Source: Microcoleus sp. GA_180221_E-2-1-MAG-45_12
GTDB taxonomy: Bacteria; Cyanobacteriota; Cyanobacteriia; Cyanobacteriales; JAAUUE01
Assembly (NCBI GenBank): GCA_020692245.1
Contig: JAIMKT010000016.1
Span: 30,120 to 65,682, forward strand
DNA length: 35,563 nucleotides
Direction: 5' to 3'
Each line of letters begins with the position of its first letter. Within the stretch, counting starts at the first letter, position 1. The notes beneath the pieces were generated by a model that ran no database searches, was not told the DNA's origin, and saw only the letters and a program-made list of their open reading frames with translations. Made by a program: the position numbers and the translations under genes. Below, piece after piece: positions 5,439 to 26,305 of the stretch.

Positions 5439-6908
5439 CTAGGGCGAGGGTCTTTTAATCCAATCAGCAATGTCTTGGATTACGGTTTCTGAGACGTGAC
5501 TAGAAACTTGGTATTCAGCGGGGCTGGGAGTGCCTGTACCGGGGATGAAGAGATGGTTTAGTTGGGGATAACTTTTGAGAGTAGCGTTTGGTCGATCGCC
5601 CAAGGCTGTTTGCCAACCTTGAAAATCTGCCATAGTCACTTGATAGTCTCGTTCTCCTTGGAGAATTAATAATCTTTGGGTTAAACTCTGGGCAGCGATC
5701 GCCGGATCATAGCCCTGTAAATCTTGCCAATAACTCACGGTAGCTCCTAACAAAGGTGTATTAGCCGGAACACGATCCCAAGCAGCATTTTTAATCACCT
5801 CTGCCTGTTGCCGAATGCCATCTATTAACTGTTGTTCTTCCGGTGTCACTGTGCCATCGAGGTTTACTAGGTAGATAGTCTGCTCTAGGAATAAATCTTC
5901 CAAGGGGCGAGTCGGGGCAGCAAGGGCGATGAGTCCAGCAAGTTGGGAATCCCTAGCTCCAATTCTGGGAATCATTAAGCCCCCTAAACTGTGACCGAGA
6001 ATGTAGATACTTTGGGGATTTAGGGAAGCAAGATTTTGATTAGTCTGAGCGTACTGCCGGAGAAAATTCACCGCCTCGATCGCATCATCCACCACCTCCT
6101 CTTTGATGGTAAAACTGCCCTGAAACTCTTGGGGATAAACTAAAGTCCGCTTGTCATAGCGCAACACCGCCACCCCCAAACTAGCTAAACCCCAGGCCAA
6201 ATCCCGGAAAGGTTTATTTGCCCCGATGGTTTCATCTCGATCGTTCGGCCCCGATCCATGCACCAACACCACCACCGGAAAATTACTTCCTTCCCTAGGA
6301 ATAGTCAGGGTTCCGGGCAGGAGATTTGCTCCTGTGCCAATTTGGACTGTTTCTTCCCGAAATTTACTCGGATCAGCATAGCTAGGCGGGGCAAAGGTTT
6401 GGGTAGCTTGGACAGGAATAAAATACAAACCAGCAATTTGTCGATCGCTATTCACCATTACTTGCACTCGTAAACTATCCTTCGCAAACTGACAAACCAC
6501 CACAAACACTTCTCTACCCCCCAGAATTTGGCGGTTTACCTCCTTGATTTCCTGAAAGTCCCCCAACTCCTGAGTAATCGCCGTCCACGCCTGCTGAATT
6601 TCCTCCACAGTTACATTTCTCTGCGTGGCGGGGCTAAAATTGGCAAAGGCTTCTCCAAAGTTTCCTTGAATCAGTTGATTAACCAAAGTAAGGGCGATCG
6701 CTTGATATTCAGTAGTATCCATATTATTAATCGGCGTGCGATTGGTCATAGCAGTCACAATTCGGTTACTCTCACCATCGAAGTCTGATCTTTGCTGAAG
6801 GGCGGCGATCGGCTCCGGCTGATAAATTATCATCCCTAAAACTAGTCCCAAAGTCAAAAGGCTCAGGAGCAGATTTCTAAAAAGTTTTAATCCCAGAGAT
6901 AATTTCAT
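5439..6908 (-). CDS. Exported alpha/beta hydrolase with N-terminal DUF3887 domain
   Basis: Serine hydrolase, probably an esterase or peptidase-like enzyme acting outside the cytoplasm; the substrate is unknown. From the ATG at 6906-6908 the protein has 489 residues. A basic N-terminus and hydrophobic stretch (residues 8-28) form a signal peptide or anchor. A DUF3887-like domain covers about 66-165 (TTEYQAIALTLVNQLIQGNF, then VEEIQQAWTAI). The alpha/beta hydrolase covers about 185-485, with the oxyanion region VHGSGPNDRDE, nucleophile elbow GHSLGG (Ser307), acid Asp421 in QGERDYQV and His452 in QLNHLF. In-frame starts at 6950 (ATG) and 7109 exist; the 7109 start adds an implausible hydrophobic leader, while 6950 remains possible. 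It is convergent with the DUF3769 gene and divergent from cydA. Confidence 0.85.
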   Translation of the reverse strand: MKLSLGLKLFRNLLLSLLTLGLVLGMIIYQPEPIAALQQRSDFDGESNRIVTAMTNRTPINNMDTTEYQAIALTLVNQLIQGNFGEAFANFSPATQRNVTVEEIQQAWTAITQELGDFQEIKEVNRQILGGREVFVVVCQFAKDSLRVQVMVNSDRQIAGLYFIPVQATQTFAPPSYADPSKFREETVQIGTGANLLPGTLTIPREGSNFPVVVLVHGSGPNDRDETIGANKPFRDLAWGLASLGVAVLRYDKRTLVYPQEFQGSFTIKEEVVDDAIEAVNFLRQYAQTNQNLASLNPQSIYILGHSLGGLMIPRIGARDSQLAGLIALAAPTRPLEDLFLEQTIYLVNLDGTVTPEEQQLIDGIRQQAEVIKNAAWDRVPANTPLLGATVSYWQDLQGYDPAIAAQSLTQRLLILQGERDYQVTMADFQGWQTALGDRPNATLKSYPQLNHLFIPGTGTPSPAEYQVSSHVSETVIQDIADWIKRPSP

Positions 6909-7381
6909 TTTCTTATTGCGATCGGTTTTTGGGGGAAGTAGTTTTCTCATTACCTTTTTACCTGAGATTGGCTCCGGTGTGCTATCAAAGATTAAAGTAG
7001 ATGCTAGCAAATCAATCAATAGATCAATTAGTGAAAATGTAATTAATTTAACTCTTTTTTTATTGTTTCTCTCTATTAAAAAAGGTATTAATCTACGACA
7101 ATGTGTCAAACCTTAAGACTTTCCGAGAGATGATTAAATAAAAGTATTAATGGCTTATTCTCAATATCAAATCTAGATTCATTAATTTGCTTATCCAAGT
7201 GCTTAAATCCTCTGCTGCACCAAAGATCAGCACTCCCGAACCTCCTTCATAAATTCGGAAATAAGCAAATTGCGATCGCCAGATTTTGCCCTAGTATTTT
7301 TTGGTGTCTCTTGAATAATTCACTAAAATAAATTACTAATAACGCCTCGATAATTCACCAGAAAATATCTTCATAACCTCC
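6909..7381. other. 473-base spacer between divergent hydrolase and cydA
   Basis: Apart from possible N-terminal extensions of the hydrolase, no gene is visible here. The stretch holds a palindrome AATCTAGATT at 7170-7179, the three-way-junction fold at 7183-7272, a HIP1 octamer GCGATCGC at 7272-7279, and a possible cydA promoter TTGGTG (7301-7306), 17 bases, TAAAAT (7324-7329). Confidence 0.6.
7183..7272. ncRNA. Predicted three-way-junction structured element upstream of cydA
   Basis: Three nested or adjacent perfect helices fit a compact junction. P1 is AATTTGCTTAT (7184-7194) with ATAAGCAAATT (7261-7271), extendable by one U-G pair. P2 is AGTGCT (7198-7203) with AGCACT (7229-7234). P3 is CCGAA (7236-7240) with TTCGG (7254-7258). 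Junction linkers are 3, 1 and 2 bases. The P3 loop contains CCTCCTT, which reads as AAGGAGG on the other strand. The strand of the transcript is unknown: it could be a leader of the hydrolase, an element upstream of cydAB or a stand-alone RNA. It matches no riboswitch that I recognise. Confidence 0.4.
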
Positions 7382-8809
7382 ATGGAATTTCTTTCAAACA
7401 CCGTAGCCTTGTCTCGGATGCAATTTGCTTTGACAGCAATTTTCCATATGCTCTGGCCTGTACTCACCACTGGTATGGGTGTTTACCTAGTAATTGTTGA
7501 AGGATTGTGGCTGAAAACTAAAAACCCCGACTACTACCACCATGCTCGCTTTTGGGCAAAACTATACGTCCTTAACTTTGGGATTGGTGTCGCCTCTGGG
7601 CTGCCGATGGAATTTCAATTTGGCACAAATTGGGCGCCCTTTTCCGAAGCCGTTGGAGATTTCTTTGGCAGTATTCTGGGCTTTGAAGGAGCCATGGCTT
7701 TCATGCTGGAAGCTGGTTTTCTCGGCATCATGCTGTTTGGCTGGAATCGAGTCCCGCCAGCAATTCACTATCTATCAACCATCATGGTCGCTTTCGGGGC
7801 AAACCTTTCTACTGTCTGGATTATCGTGGCAAACTCTTGGCTCCAAACTCCAGATGGGGGAAAATTCATTGATGGAAAATTTATTGTCAGTGACTATTTC
7901 CAAGCAATTCTTAATCCCTTTGCCCTCAAGAGTTTCCTGCACATGTTCTTTGCCACCCTCGAAACTTCCTTATTTGTCATTGGCGGGATCAGTGCTTGGT
8001 ATATCCTCAGCGATCGTCACGTGAGCTTCTTTACAAAATCCTTTCGGATTGCCCTTGGGGCAGCAATTCTGGTGGCTCCACTCCAAATTTATATTGGTCA
8101 TCTCAGCGCTGAACAGGTCTATAAATATCAACCCAGTAAACTAGCGGCGATGGAAGCCAAATGGGAAACTAGTGCGGCAGGAGAAGCGGCGGATTGGAGT
8201 CTGTTGGCAATGCCCAATAACAAAACTCAACAAAATGACTGGGAGATCACCATTCCCAAGGGGTTGGGCTATGTGTTGGAGTTTAAGCAAAATTTGAGTG
8301 AGCCAGTTTTAGGGCTGAAGGAATGGGCTCCAGAGGATCGCCCCCGGATGGTAGGTTTGATTTACTATTCGTTTCGGATTATGAGTGGCATTGGCTTTTT
8401 CCTTGCTGGTTTGATGCTGGTGAGTGTGATGCAATGGCTACGAGGCAAACTAACTCCGGAGGCGATCGCCACCCAAAAATGGCTGTTGAGAGCATGGCTT
8501 TTGGCTAGTCCCCTGGGTTATATCGCTGTGGAGTCTGGTTGGATTGTCCGCTGTGTTGGTCGTCAGCCTTGGGTGGTCTATGGGCAGATTCGCACGGCTG
8601 ATGGGGTGTCTAACCTGCCCTCTGGAGTTGTGCTGGCTTCTCTGACTAGCTTTGCCGTCATCTATACCATTTTATTGATTGCTACTTTCTACTTCGGAAG
8701 ACGGATTATCATTGCTGGCCCTGATCTGGATTTACCCTATCCCGGAGGAGACTTGGATTTATCTCCACCCCAGCTACAGCCCGATCGTCGTCCCGTAGAA
8801 ATTAAATAA
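7382..8809 (+). CDS. cydA: Cytochrome bd quinol oxidase subunit I
   Basis: CydA is the quinol-oxidising, haem-bearing subunit of cytochrome bd oxidase. It reduces oxygen to water at the expense of plastoquinol or ubiquinol in thylakoid and/or cytoplasmic membranes. The 475-residue product keeps the haem ligands His22 (AIFHMLWP), His187 (FLHMFFATLE) and a Met in SFRIMSGIG. The acidic pair GFEGAMAFMLEAGFLG (Glu102, Glu110) and the GRQPW segment are also present. About nine membrane helices are expected. It is shorter than the E. coli protein (522), which fits the short Q-loop type. The ATG follows an ACCTCC stretch with no good Shine-Dalgarno sequence. cydB starts 24 bases after its stop, forming an operon. 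Confidence 0.96.
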   Translation: MEFLSNTVALSRMQFALTAIFHMLWPVLTTGMGVYLVIVEGLWLKTKNPDYYHHARFWAKLYVLNFGIGVASGLPMEFQFGTNWAPFSEAVGDFFGSILGFEGAMAFMLEAGFLGIMLFGWNRVPPAIHYLSTIMVAFGANLSTVWIIVANSWLQTPDGGKFIDGKFIVSDYFQAILNPFALKSFLHMFFATLETSLFVIGGISAWYILSDRHVSFFTKSFRIALGAAILVAPLQIYIGHLSAEQVYKYQPSKLAAMEAKWETSAAGEAADWSLLAMPNNKTQQNDWEITIPKGLGYVLEFKQNLSEPVLGLKEWAPEDRPRMVGLIYYSFRIMSGIGFFLAGLMLVSVMQWLRGKLTPEAIATQKWLLRAWLLASPLGYIAVESGWIVRCVGRQPWVVYGQIRTADGVSNLPSGVVLASLTSFAVIYTILLIATFYFGRRIIIAGPDLDLPYPGGDLDLSPPQLQPDRRPVEIK

Positions 8810-8833: not shown

Positions 8834-9838
8834 ATGGAAGCTCTACAACATTTTTTACCAGAGGTTTGGTTTGTCATTCTGGCGCTGTTTCTCCTCCTCT
8901 ACGTCATGCTAGATGGTTTTGATCTGGGGGTAGGTATTCTATCTCTGACTTCTTCTAACGAAGAACGCCGGACAATGCTCATGACTAGCTTGGGGAATGT
9001 GTGGGATGCCAACGAGACTTGGTTAGTCCTCATGGGTGGAGCCTTGTTTGGAGCCTTTCCCCTTGCCTACGCTACCATTCTTAGCTCGCTCTATATGCCG
9101 ATTATGGGGATGATTTTTGGTCTAATTTTCCGGGCGGTGGCTTTTGAGTTTCGGGAACATTCAAACCGTAAGTTACTCTGGAATACGGCTTTTGGGGTAG
9201 GTAGTTTCCTTGCTGCTTTTTGTCAGGGTTTGGCTCTGGGGAGTGTGCTATCTGGCATCAAAGTAGATGCTCAGGGGCATTTTGTCGGCACAGTGTGGGA
9301 TTGGATGACTTGGCAATCTCTGTTAATGGCTCTGACCTTGGTGCAGGGCTATGTGTTGATCGGCTCTACCTATCTCATTCTCAAAACCTCTGGAGAACTC
9401 CAAAAAGCTCACTATCGCACTGCTAAGATTGCTGCCTCGACCACTTTAATCGGGGCTATGGTGATTACAACTATTACACCGATTTTCTTTCAGAGTCTCA
9501 GGGATAAACTATTTGATCCGCCTCTGGTCTATGTTTTTGCCGTAATTCCTGTGGTGGGTGTGGTGATTATTTGGCAATTACTCAGTAGTCTCGATCGAGA
9601 AGCAGAAGTAGCTCCCTTTGTCTGGACAATTCTCCTCTTTCTCCTAACTTTCCTCGGCTTGGGGCTAATCGTATTTCCCTACATCATCCCCACCAGCATC
9701 AGCATCTATCAGGCTGCCGCCTCCCCCAGTGCCTTAGTATTCATGATTATTTTCATCGGTTTCCTGATCCCCATCATGCTTTTCTACAATATCTACCAGT
9801 ACATTGTCTTTCGAGGGAAGGTCATCGAACACAGTTAG
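8834..9838 (+). CDS. cydB: Cytochrome bd quinol oxidase subunit II
   Basis: CydB is the structural partner of CydA and is needed for assembly of the haem-containing oxidase. The 334-residue, strongly hydrophobic protein has the family signature YVMLDGFDLGVGIL at residues 23-36, GNVWDANETWLVLMGGALFGAFP at about 56-78, and roughly eight helices up to the end. Its length is in the short range of the CydB family. It follows cydA by 24 bases and is almost certainly co-transcribed. No CydX-like micropeptide and no cydDC genes are visible after it; the next feature is a tRNA with its own promoter. Confidence 0.96.
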   Translation: MEALQHFLPEVWFVILALFLLLYVMLDGFDLGVGILSLTSSNEERRTMLMTSLGNVWDANETWLVLMGGALFGAFPLAYATILSSLYMPIMGMIFGLIFRAVAFEFREHSNRKLLWNTAFGVGSFLAAFCQGLALGSVLSGIKVDAQGHFVGTVWDWMTWQSLLMALTLVQGYVLIGSTYLILKTSGELQKAHYRTAKIAASTTLIGAMVITTITPIFFQSLRDKLFDPPLVYVFAVIPVVGVVIIWQLLSSLDREAEVAPFVWTILLFLLTFLGLGLIVFPYIIPTSISIYQAAASPSALVFMIIFIGFLIPIMLFYNIYQYIVFRGKVIEHS

Positions 9839-9863
9839 AGTCTGAAAAATAATTAAATTTTAG

Positions 9864-14834: not shown

Positions 14835-14928
14835 TATCCCAAATCTGGGTATCATAGCTAACTCTACTCTTGTAGTAACGGCTTTAGCCGCTCTATATAA
14901 ATACATTGATAAAACCAGATTTGGTATT
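14835..14928. repeat. 94-bp miniature element with imperfect terminal inverted repeats and REP core
   Basis: The left arm ATCCCAAATCTGGGTATCA (14836-14854) pairs with the right arm at 14907-14928, whose reverse complement reads ATACCAAATCTGG, TTT, TATCA. The centre carries TAGTAACGGCTTTAGCCG (14873-14890), the GC-exchanged version of the REP core found elsewhere in the window. There is no coding capacity. It lies between the FAD oxidoreductase and the next gene. Confidence 0.6.
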
Positions 14929-23570: not shown

Positions 23571-23618
23571 CTGGAGTTAGTTCCTGAGTTAATTCTAGAG
23601 TGTTAATTCTGGACTTAA
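23571..23618. repeat. Degenerate short tandem repeats downstream of the cyclase gene
   Basis: The sequence GAGTTAATTCTAGAGTGTTA (23586-23605), followed by ATTCTGGACTTAATT, contains near-tandem copies of GTTAATTCT(A/G)GA with a period of about 16 bases. They lie between the cyclase stop and the Gfo/Idh/MocA start. The function is unknown. Confidence 0.35.
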
Positions 23619-23653
23619 TTGTGGGGTTGATTTATGGGGCTATTTTTCCAGAT

Positions 23654-26305
23654 TTATTTTTCTGTCATGATCCAAGAACCATCCCAATCATCAGGAGGAG
23701 CATTTTTAAGCCAGTGCTGACAACGCTGCATGTGTAAGTCAGCAGATTTATCACGGCTGTCAATTTCTGTAACCATGGCAAATTCGCCGATCGCCCTCGC
23801 AAATTGACGCTTCCGATACAACTCCAAGCCCTTGGCATAGTGGTCTATAACCTGAAGTTTTTGATCGGTAACAGTTTCTGTGCGGAGTCCTACTAATTCA
23901 TAGACACTAACTGGCTGGGTTTTGCCCTTCACCTTGAGGTAGTCTAGTTCCCTTGCCCAAATTCGATCGGCACAGGGATGGTAGGTTTGTTCACTGATGA
24001 CAATATCACAGCCGTACTGTTTGCTTGCACTTTCCAGACGAGAAGCCAAGTTTACCCCGTCCCCGATCGCCGTATATTCCATCCGCCGACTAGAACCAAT
24101 ATTACCCCCCAGAACCTTATCTGAGTGAATACCAATCCCGATCGAAATTGGTATCTGTCCTTCCGTTATTCGCTTTGTGTTGAATAAAGCTAACCGATTC
24201 CGCATCTCCACCGCCGTTTGTACCGCCATCCATTGGTGATCATCCAGAGGGAGAGGTGAACCAAAGACAGCCATCATCGCATCACCGATATACTTATCTA
24301 GGGTTCCCTTGTAGTGAAACAGGACATCCACCATGTCTTCAAAGTATTCGTTGAGCATACTCACCACGTCTTCTGGAGACATTTTTTCGGTGAGAGTGGT
24401 GTAGCCCCGAATATCTGAAAAGAGGACAGAGACATCCTTGAGATTTCCCCCCAAGAGGGCTTCCCCACCACTGATAAGTTGTTCAGCTAACTCTTGGTTC
24501 ATGTAGCGATACATGGTAGTTTTCAGGCGTTTTTCATCACTGATATCTTCCATGATCACCAAGGCTCCATTGACCTTAGTAGAATCCGCAGCATCGGCGA
24601 TCGTATTAATCGAAATATTCACACTGTGCTGCTCTGTGCCAGTAGATTGCAAAATTTGGTCTGGGTAATACTGTTCCCGGTTTTTCTCTTCTTGGGGATT
24701 GAGAGCATTGTGGAACCACTGCAAAAACTTGTTGGGATTTTTTTCAGCATTATTTTTGTCTTGCTTTTCCTGCACCCAAACTAGCTCTGCCACCAGTCTG
24801 CCTTCAATCTTATCTTCAACTTTTAAGCCCAGTAGCTCCTTCGCTTTTTCATTGGCGGCAATAATCTTGCCATCCTTGGCGGTGGAGATCACCCCATCAG
24901 ATAAACTGCGGAGAATATCCCGTTGCATCTGCTCCTGTTGCTTGATGGTGGCAAATAATTTGGCATTTTGCAGGGCAACTCCAGCTTGGATATTGAACGC
25001 CTCCATGAACTCTTGGTCACTGCGATCGAACCCTGCTTTCCAACAATCGGGAGCCGTCGGCCAGTTTTCCGGATCGTAGGGGGGATATTCCCCTTGTTTG
25101 AGTTTATTAATTAGCTGAGTAACCGCAATTAATTCTCCATCCCCATTCTTCACAGGCATACAGAGCATACTGCAAGTCCGGTAGCCCGATCGATTGTCCG
25201 TATCCTTAGAAGTTTGGGAATTGGGATGATCATAAAGATCAAAGCCAATATTTAATGGCTCGCCACTAGTAGCCACCTGCCCAGCAAAACCAGCCCCTAG
25301 GGGAATGCGGATTTCCCTTAGTTCGCCAGCAATGGGAATTTTTGTCCACAACTGCCCTGCTTCTTGGTCAATCAACCACAGGGTACTGCGATCGGCTCCC
25401 ATCAGTTTTTTCGCCTCATCCATCACCTTACCTAGGGTTTCTTCGAGGTCTAGGCTACTCTGGCTCAGGGATTGGGTGGCTGTCATCAGGGCTTCAGCAG
25501 CGCGCTGGCGTTGGGTAGCTTTTCTCAGGGAACGAGAAGATTCTAAGATCAAGCGAATAGAAGGGGCAAAATCTGCAAATAGAGCCTCATCTGCTTGGGT
25601 AAATCCAGTGTAGTCAATGCGCTGATCTAGTTCCGAAGCTGGATCATTTTCTTTCTTCAGCTTATTCAACAACTGCACCACTGCCACTAGCTTGCCATCT
25701 TCTCCTACTAGAGGCAAACACAGCATGGTATAAGTCCGATAGCCAGTTTTTTTGTACTGCTCCTTGGCAGCTTCAGAGCGGGGATCATCAAAAAAGTCGT
25801 GGGGAATATTGACTACTCGCTTATAGGTAGCCACTTCTCCAGCGATCCCTTGGTCAGCATTAATCCGAATTTCAAAGGAGCCGCCCCCACTGCCCTTGGC
25901 GACGATCGACCAGAGCTGTTGCTTCTCTTCATCCAACAAAAATATTGTCGTCCGGTCTGCCCCCAAAAGTTCTCCAGTTTTGAGACTAATGGACTGGAGC
26001 ATTTCATCAAGAATACCGTCAAACCCTTGGCTGCTAAGAATATCATCTAGCATAGAAAGAGTTTGATTCATCACCACCAATTTATCCTCTACACCGTTGA
26101 CCACCTGCTTAAAGGTATCTTGGTTGAGGGGTGCAAGGTAGGCAGAAAAGTTGCCCTTGGTAGTAGCTAAGGCACTGGAAGAACTTGGCTTAGGTTGATG
26201 TCCTTGGTTATCGCTAGGGGTATCAGCGGTTTCCACTACCACATCAATATCAATGGTAGTTTCACGGGCATCTAGGGTCTGACGTTTAGGAGATGCAGCT
26301 GTCAT
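23654..26305 (-). CDS. Class III adenylate cyclase with tandem GAF and PAS domains (CyaB type)
   Basis: An 883-residue cytosolic cyclase making cAMP from ATP. Domain order is GAF-A (about 95-250, NK...F...DE motif at N214/K215/F235/D239/E240), GAF-B (about 285-445), PAS (about 460-590) and a class III catalytic domain (about 620-800). A TPR-like tail contains YRKRQFARAIGEFAMV. Catalytic residues are present: metal Asp631 in VLFSDIRGYT and Asp675 in KYIGDAMMAVFG, adenine-specifying Lys671, Thr745 in RMEYTAIGDGVN, and Asn752/Arg756. This architecture equals CyaB1/CyaB2 of Anabaena, where the GAF tandem binds cAMP. The Thr in place of Asp marks the bicarbonate-responsive IIIb group. In GAF-B the motif ends in D430-Q431 rather than DE. 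Confidence 0.92.
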   Translation of the reverse strand: MTAASPKRQTLDARETTIDIDVVVETADTPSDNQGHQPKPSSSSALATTKGNFSAYLAPLNQDTFKQVVNGVEDKLVVMNQTLSMLDDILSSQGFDGILDEMLQSISLKTGELLGADRTTIFLLDEEKQQLWSIVAKGSGGGSFEIRINADQGIAGEVATYKRVVNIPHDFFDDPRSEAAKEQYKKTGYRTYTMLCLPLVGEDGKLVAVVQLLNKLKKENDPASELDQRIDYTGFTQADEALFADFAPSIRLILESSRSLRKATQRQRAAEALMTATQSLSQSSLDLEETLGKVMDEAKKLMGADRSTLWLIDQEAGQLWTKIPIAGELREIRIPLGAGFAGQVATSGEPLNIGFDLYDHPNSQTSKDTDNRSGYRTCSMLCMPVKNGDGELIAVTQLINKLKQGEYPPYDPENWPTAPDCWKAGFDRSDQEFMEAFNIQAGVALQNAKLFATIKQQEQMQRDILRSLSDGVISTAKDGKIIAANEKAKELLGLKVEDKIEGRLVAELVWVQEKQDKNNAEKNPNKFLQWFHNALNPQEEKNREQYYPDQILQSTGTEQHSVNISINTIADAADSTKVNGALVIMEDISDEKRLKTTMYRYMNQELAEQLISGGEALLGGNLKDVSVLFSDIRGYTTLTEKMSPEDVVSMLNEYFEDMVDVLFHYKGTLDKYIGDAMMAVFGSPLPLDDHQWMAVQTAVEMRNRLALFNTKRITEGQIPISIGIGIHSDKVLGGNIGSSRRMEYTAIGDGVNLASRLESASKQYGCDIVISEQTYHPCADRIWARELDYLKVKGKTQPVSVYELVGLRTETVTDQKLQVIDHYAKGLELYRKRQFARAIGEFAMVTEIDSRDKSADLHMQRCQHWLKNAPPDDWDGSWIMTEK

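Follow-up and report, generated by a model that had tools for sequence, protein, structure and literature searches.

Does the compact inverted repeat between a hydrolase gene and the bd oxidase genes cydAB of Microcoleus sp. GA_180221_E-2-1-MAG-45_12 act as a structured RNA, and if so from which strand, or does it have a simpler origin? We addressed this question in a stretch of 35,563 nucleotides (hereafter the window, whose coordinates are used throughout). The genes that border the spacer and the parts of the fold are as follows.

5439..6950, minus strand: alpha/beta hydrolase with DUF3887 (domain match; EstD-like, under the NCBIfam cut-off)
7382..8809, plus strand: cydA (domain match, Cyt_bd_oxida_I)
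8834..9838, plus strand: cydB (domain match, Cyt_bd_oxida_II)
7183..7272, no strand assigned: three-way-junction inverted repeat (from folding, shuffles and a geometry search)
7184..7194, no strand assigned: 5' arm of helix P1, AATTTGCTTAT, pairing with 7261-7271
7261..7271, no strand assigned: 3' arm of P1, ATAAGCAAATT, pairing with 7184-7194
7198..7203, no strand assigned: 5' arm of P2, AGTGCT, pairing with 7229-7234
7229..7234, no strand assigned: 3' arm of P2, AGCACT, pairing with 7198-7203
7236..7240, no strand assigned: 5' arm of P3, CCGAA, pairing with 7254-7258
7254..7258, no strand assigned: 3' arm of P3, TTCGG, pairing with 7236-7240
7169..7289 (approximate ends), no strand assigned: wider imperfect inverted repeat, with AAATCT-type outer arms around P1 (from folds)

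An exact three-way junction of rare geometry and ordinary stability

The first-pass annotation had described three perfect helices of 11, 6 and 5 bp joined by linkers of 3, 1 and 2 bases. RNA folding returned exactly this three-way junction as the minimum free energy structure of the plus strand (-18.6 kcal/mol), with the perfect helices spanning 7184-7271: P1 comprises 11 Watson-Crick pairs and an additional U-G pair at 7183/7272, P2 six pairs and P3 five. The motif CCTCCTT (7241-7247) lies within the P3 loop, so that the minus strand presents AAGGAGG in a loop, again as annotated. Folds of the wider repeat (7165-7291 on the minus strand and 7168-7396 on the plus strand) gave z-scores of -3.3 and -2.5, no sharper than those of the core.

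To what extent such a fold is unexpected depends on the property that is scored. A search for the exact geometry (P1 of at least 11 bp, further helices of 6 and 5 bp, linkers of at most 3 bases) found the element itself and no other occurrence in 223 kb of its own genome, and none in 60 shuffled (first-order Markov) copies of these 223 kb. A looser geometry (9, 5 and 5 bp) occurred 10 times in the 60 shuffled copies, or about 0.03 times per 35-kb window. Among dinucleotide shuffles of the element, 24 of 20,000 folded as well on the plus strand and 2 of 20,000 on the minus strand. When stability was corrected for composition, 18 of 29,308 native 90-nt windows in the 223 kb were as extreme or more so; these represent roughly a dozen places, about one per 18 kb. 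Two other 90-nt stretches of the window itself, 23571-23660 on the plus strand and 14836-14925 on the minus strand, have composition-adjusted energies as low or lower. The arrangement of perfect helices is thus unusual, and its folding stability is ordinary for this genome.

These numbers bear directly on the possibility that the pairing arose by chance in an AT-rich spacer and was spotted as the whole window was searched by eye. The element was indeed chosen post hoc out of 35 kb, folds of comparable or better corrected stability recur throughout the genome, loosely similar junctions are expected at the rate given above, and no conservation was found. Against this stand the absence of the exact geometry from all shuffled copies and the rarity of shuffles that reach the minus-strand energy. 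We consider chance pairing unlikely, and of the alternatives weighed here the one to be taken most seriously.

A single-copy element with no recognizable relatives

Overall, the searches for copies and homologues matched the element to itself alone. BLAST, a single-sequence covariance model and an arm-pattern search revealed no second copy in its own genome. BLAST against 60 relatives and 390 genomes of the class yielded no credible homologue, the DNA matches in relatives being of the HIP1 or AT type only (21-54 nt), and the covariance model, applied to 293 genomes of the order, produced only sub-threshold matches in other contexts; since the whole-genome searches begin with filters, they may have overlooked homologues alike in structure but with little sequence in common. 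The loci surrounding cydA in other cyanobacteria and those surrounding relatives of the hydrolase contained no homologue either, and here too the covariance model gave sub-threshold matches only, again within other contexts. No match to the element was found in plasmid, phage and viral collections, nor was there a credible match to any Rfam family at gathering or relaxed thresholds, the best sub-threshold matches being implausible eukaryotic families far under the cut-off. With no homologues to compare, there is no covariation to count, either for or against the fold. The literature searched contained nothing on the element at 7183-7272 or on the box upstream of cydA described below. As a structured RNA, the element is of little importance at present, being a single copy for which no relatives were found.

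The minus strand folds more stably, mostly owing to its composition

The minimum free energy of the minus strand is -31.6 kcal/mol, compared with -18.6 kcal/mol on the plus strand, as eight G-U pairs, which are A-C mismatches on the plus strand, lengthen all three helices. The minus-strand z-score is about -4.8. However, minus-strand shuffles average -18.0 kcal/mol and plus-strand shuffles -9.1 kcal/mol, so that most of the energy gap between the strands reflects G/U-rich composition. We therefore did not take the greater minus-strand stability as evidence of strand. The minus strand also carries a short putative frame.

7147..7233, minus strand: 28-codon reading frame with a GTG start (read from the sequence)

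Its GTG lies in frame, 7 nt past the AAGGAGG (7247-7241). The minus strand could accordingly encode a leader element of the hydrolase or a small RNA, perhaps with the AAGGAGG and GTG opening a 28-codon leader peptide that starts in P2. Either form of minus-strand RNA would draw its only positive support from the minus-strand stability. The start of the hydrolase is more than 230 nt away. A promoter consensus scan of the minus strand returned one promoter-like site against 2.6 expected, with no terminator above chance; this lone site lies downstream of the element on that strand, and a transcript from it would omit the element. Of the functions proposed in the first-pass annotation, a leader switch for the hydrolase thus finds no homologue at the loci of hydrolase relatives and no minus-strand promoter or terminator above chance, and the proposal of a small RNA fares no better, given the lack of a family match, a homologue and a clear terminator. 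Cyanobacterial small RNAs, a class surveyed in PMC1242208, resemble the element in being intergenic and structured; the element differs in having no family match, no homologue and no promoter or terminator evidence. We regard a minus-strand RNA as unlikely, and place it just behind chance pairing.

A conserved box upstream of cydA and a long predicted leader

Comparison of the regions upstream of cyanobacterial cydA genes uncovered a sense-strand box resembling AAACCTTAARACTTTC, from which a promoter and a leader can be predicted in the window.

7110..7123, plus strand: conserved cydA-upstream box, ACCTTAAGACTTTC, within a box-like stretch at 7107-7123 (upstream-region comparison)
7156..7161, plus strand: predicted -10 hexamer, TATTCT, 32 nt past the box
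7168..7381, plus strand: predicted cydAB 5' leader of 214 nt (from the box and the -10 spacing)

Scored by its 14-nt core, ACCTTAARACTTTC, the box was present with at least 12 of 14 matches at 8 of 50 CydA loci, where 0.25 were expected from shuffles, and at 12 of 29 further loci, where 0.67 were expected; several of these loci are close kin, and the independent lineages are fewer (Pseudanabaena, two kinds of Leptolyngbyaceae, Gloeobacterales and order-level relatives). Carriers of a AAACCTTAARACTTTC-like box are the window, L007, L011, L017, L018, L019, L033, L042 and about 19 of the loci L178-L206. At L005, whose cydA is the closest examined (82%), the box is not at its usual place. In the first set, the window and six further loci have a -10-like hexamer 31-33 nt past the box; these hexamers match only loosely (4-5 of 6; 4 of 6 for the TATTCT of the window) and the allowed range was wide, and we read the spacing as support rather than proof. 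On this basis transcription would start at about 7168. The box is possibly a binding site for a regulator of cydAB.

The box mostly lies 76-124 nt ahead of the cydA ATG, and in the window at -272. Given the -10-like hexamer at the shared spacing, the cydA leader is predicted to be about 160 nt longer here, at 214 nt compared with 41-56 nt in box-bearing relatives. The element falls wholly within this extra length and would make up the first half of the leader. The suggestion of a regulatory element near the oxidase operon therefore stands with respect to position, between the conserved box with its -10-like hexamer and the cydA ATG; regulation is a candidate role. Cyanobacterial cydAB appears to possess a conserved upstream box set at a constant distance from the -10 position, which offers a testable control site for bd oxidase, and we consider this box a more promising lead than the fold.

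An exact second copy of the box occurs elsewhere in the genome (G000:C68:18802-18817, about 1003-1018 of L125), about 206 nt upstream of glnA; the corresponding copy in the same-genus genome is degenerate. We rejected the box as the mark of a cydAB-glnA regulon, as its occurrence ahead of glnA is confined to the two genomes belonging to the genus.

A probable palindromic insert between the predicted cydAB promoter and cydA

The explanation that we favor, with about even confidence, is that a lineage-specific, single-copy palindromic segment of about 90-125 bp was inserted, or grew, between the cydAB promoter and cydA. With a promoter at the position of the box and the -10 hexamer, the cydAB transcript would begin with an unusually long leader whose first half is the segment, folded into the three-way junction. 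We would expect no more than a passive effect, in which a stable stem near the 5' end alters leader length and mRNA stability, and a ligand- or protein-sensing switch is unnecessary to explain the element. The pairing, its single copy, the conserved box and the added distance are observed, and the promoter, the transcription and the effect are inferred. The element is present once, inspection by eye revealed no target-site duplication at the plausible borders, and the rest of the leader is too diverged to mark those borders or the empty site; we likewise infer the insertion rather than observe it. The fold being stabler on the minus strand, not on the strand of cydAB, counts against this explanation, as does the lack of the box at its usual place at L005. 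The fold itself is confirmed, any function is a candidate one, and we rate the element as ordinary.

The same position would suit a more active role, in which the element is a cis-acting regulatory RNA of the cydAB leader. The 3' side of P1 (7263-7273) is complementary at 11 of 11 positions to cydA codons 14-17 (7420-7430) on the plus strand, and this pairing and P1 are mutually exclusive, so that the choice between them could set cydA expression. However, P1 dominates, with a pair probability of 0.99 against 0.009 for the alternative and 2.8 kcal/mol between them. The cydA side encodes MQFA and reads the same in relatives that lack the element, which indicates that it is constrained by the protein and that the 11-nt match may be due to chance. 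Structured 5' leaders such as attenuators and riboswitches resemble the element in that a three-way junction lies in a predicted mRNA leader; they differ from it in that the element has no Rfam match, no conservation and no terminator or sequestered start codon beside cydA. A cis-acting RNA is therefore doubtful and follows the minus-strand RNA in our ranking, and its specific form, a lineage-specific switch that tunes oxidase expression through P1 and codons 14-17, is very improbable.

The favored origin, a palindromic segment in the leader, invites comparison with the miniature inverted-repeat transposable elements (MITEs) of bacteria, which are likewise short, palindromic, non-coding and situated in intergenic spacers or leaders. 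As regards terminal inverted repeats, the element has 11-bp perfect arms and degenerate outer arms, with approximate ends. Least probable of all is that it is itself a MITE or an insertion-sequence relic: the long inverted arms with weaker outer ones and a hairpin insert in the same leader of another genome would suit such an origin, but MITEs are multiple-copy elements, whereas this one is single even by arm pattern, shows by eye no target-site duplication and is absent from the plasmid and phage collections.

That insert, at L180 (genome G166), adds about 100 hairpin-rich nucleotides between the promoter region and cydA relative to its close relatives L178, L179 and L181, with which the flanking sequence aligns closely. 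Its core, CCCCCCCTTAATAAGGGGGGG, has no sequence relation to the element in the window and looks like a mobile inverted-repeat element. As an independent case, L180 shows that the cydA leader can accept such inserts, and that the spacer between the box and cydA tolerates hairpins.

The gene neighborhood is itself variable. In the sole other genome of the genus (G001), tocopherol-type methyltransferase and prenyltransferase genes precede the tRNA that trails cydB in the window; cydAB was not found in this assembly (87% complete), and the hydrolase gene there runs into the end of a contig, so that G001 could not serve as a comparison for the spacer. Comparison with the corresponding locus (L145, G001:C69) places a rearrangement border at 9838-9846 of the window, with cydAB on one side of the comparison and the tocopherol-type genes on the other ahead of the tRNA and pentapeptide region. 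The spacer between the hydrolase and cydAB may thus be a young, lineage-specific junction, which would fit a lineage-specific element.
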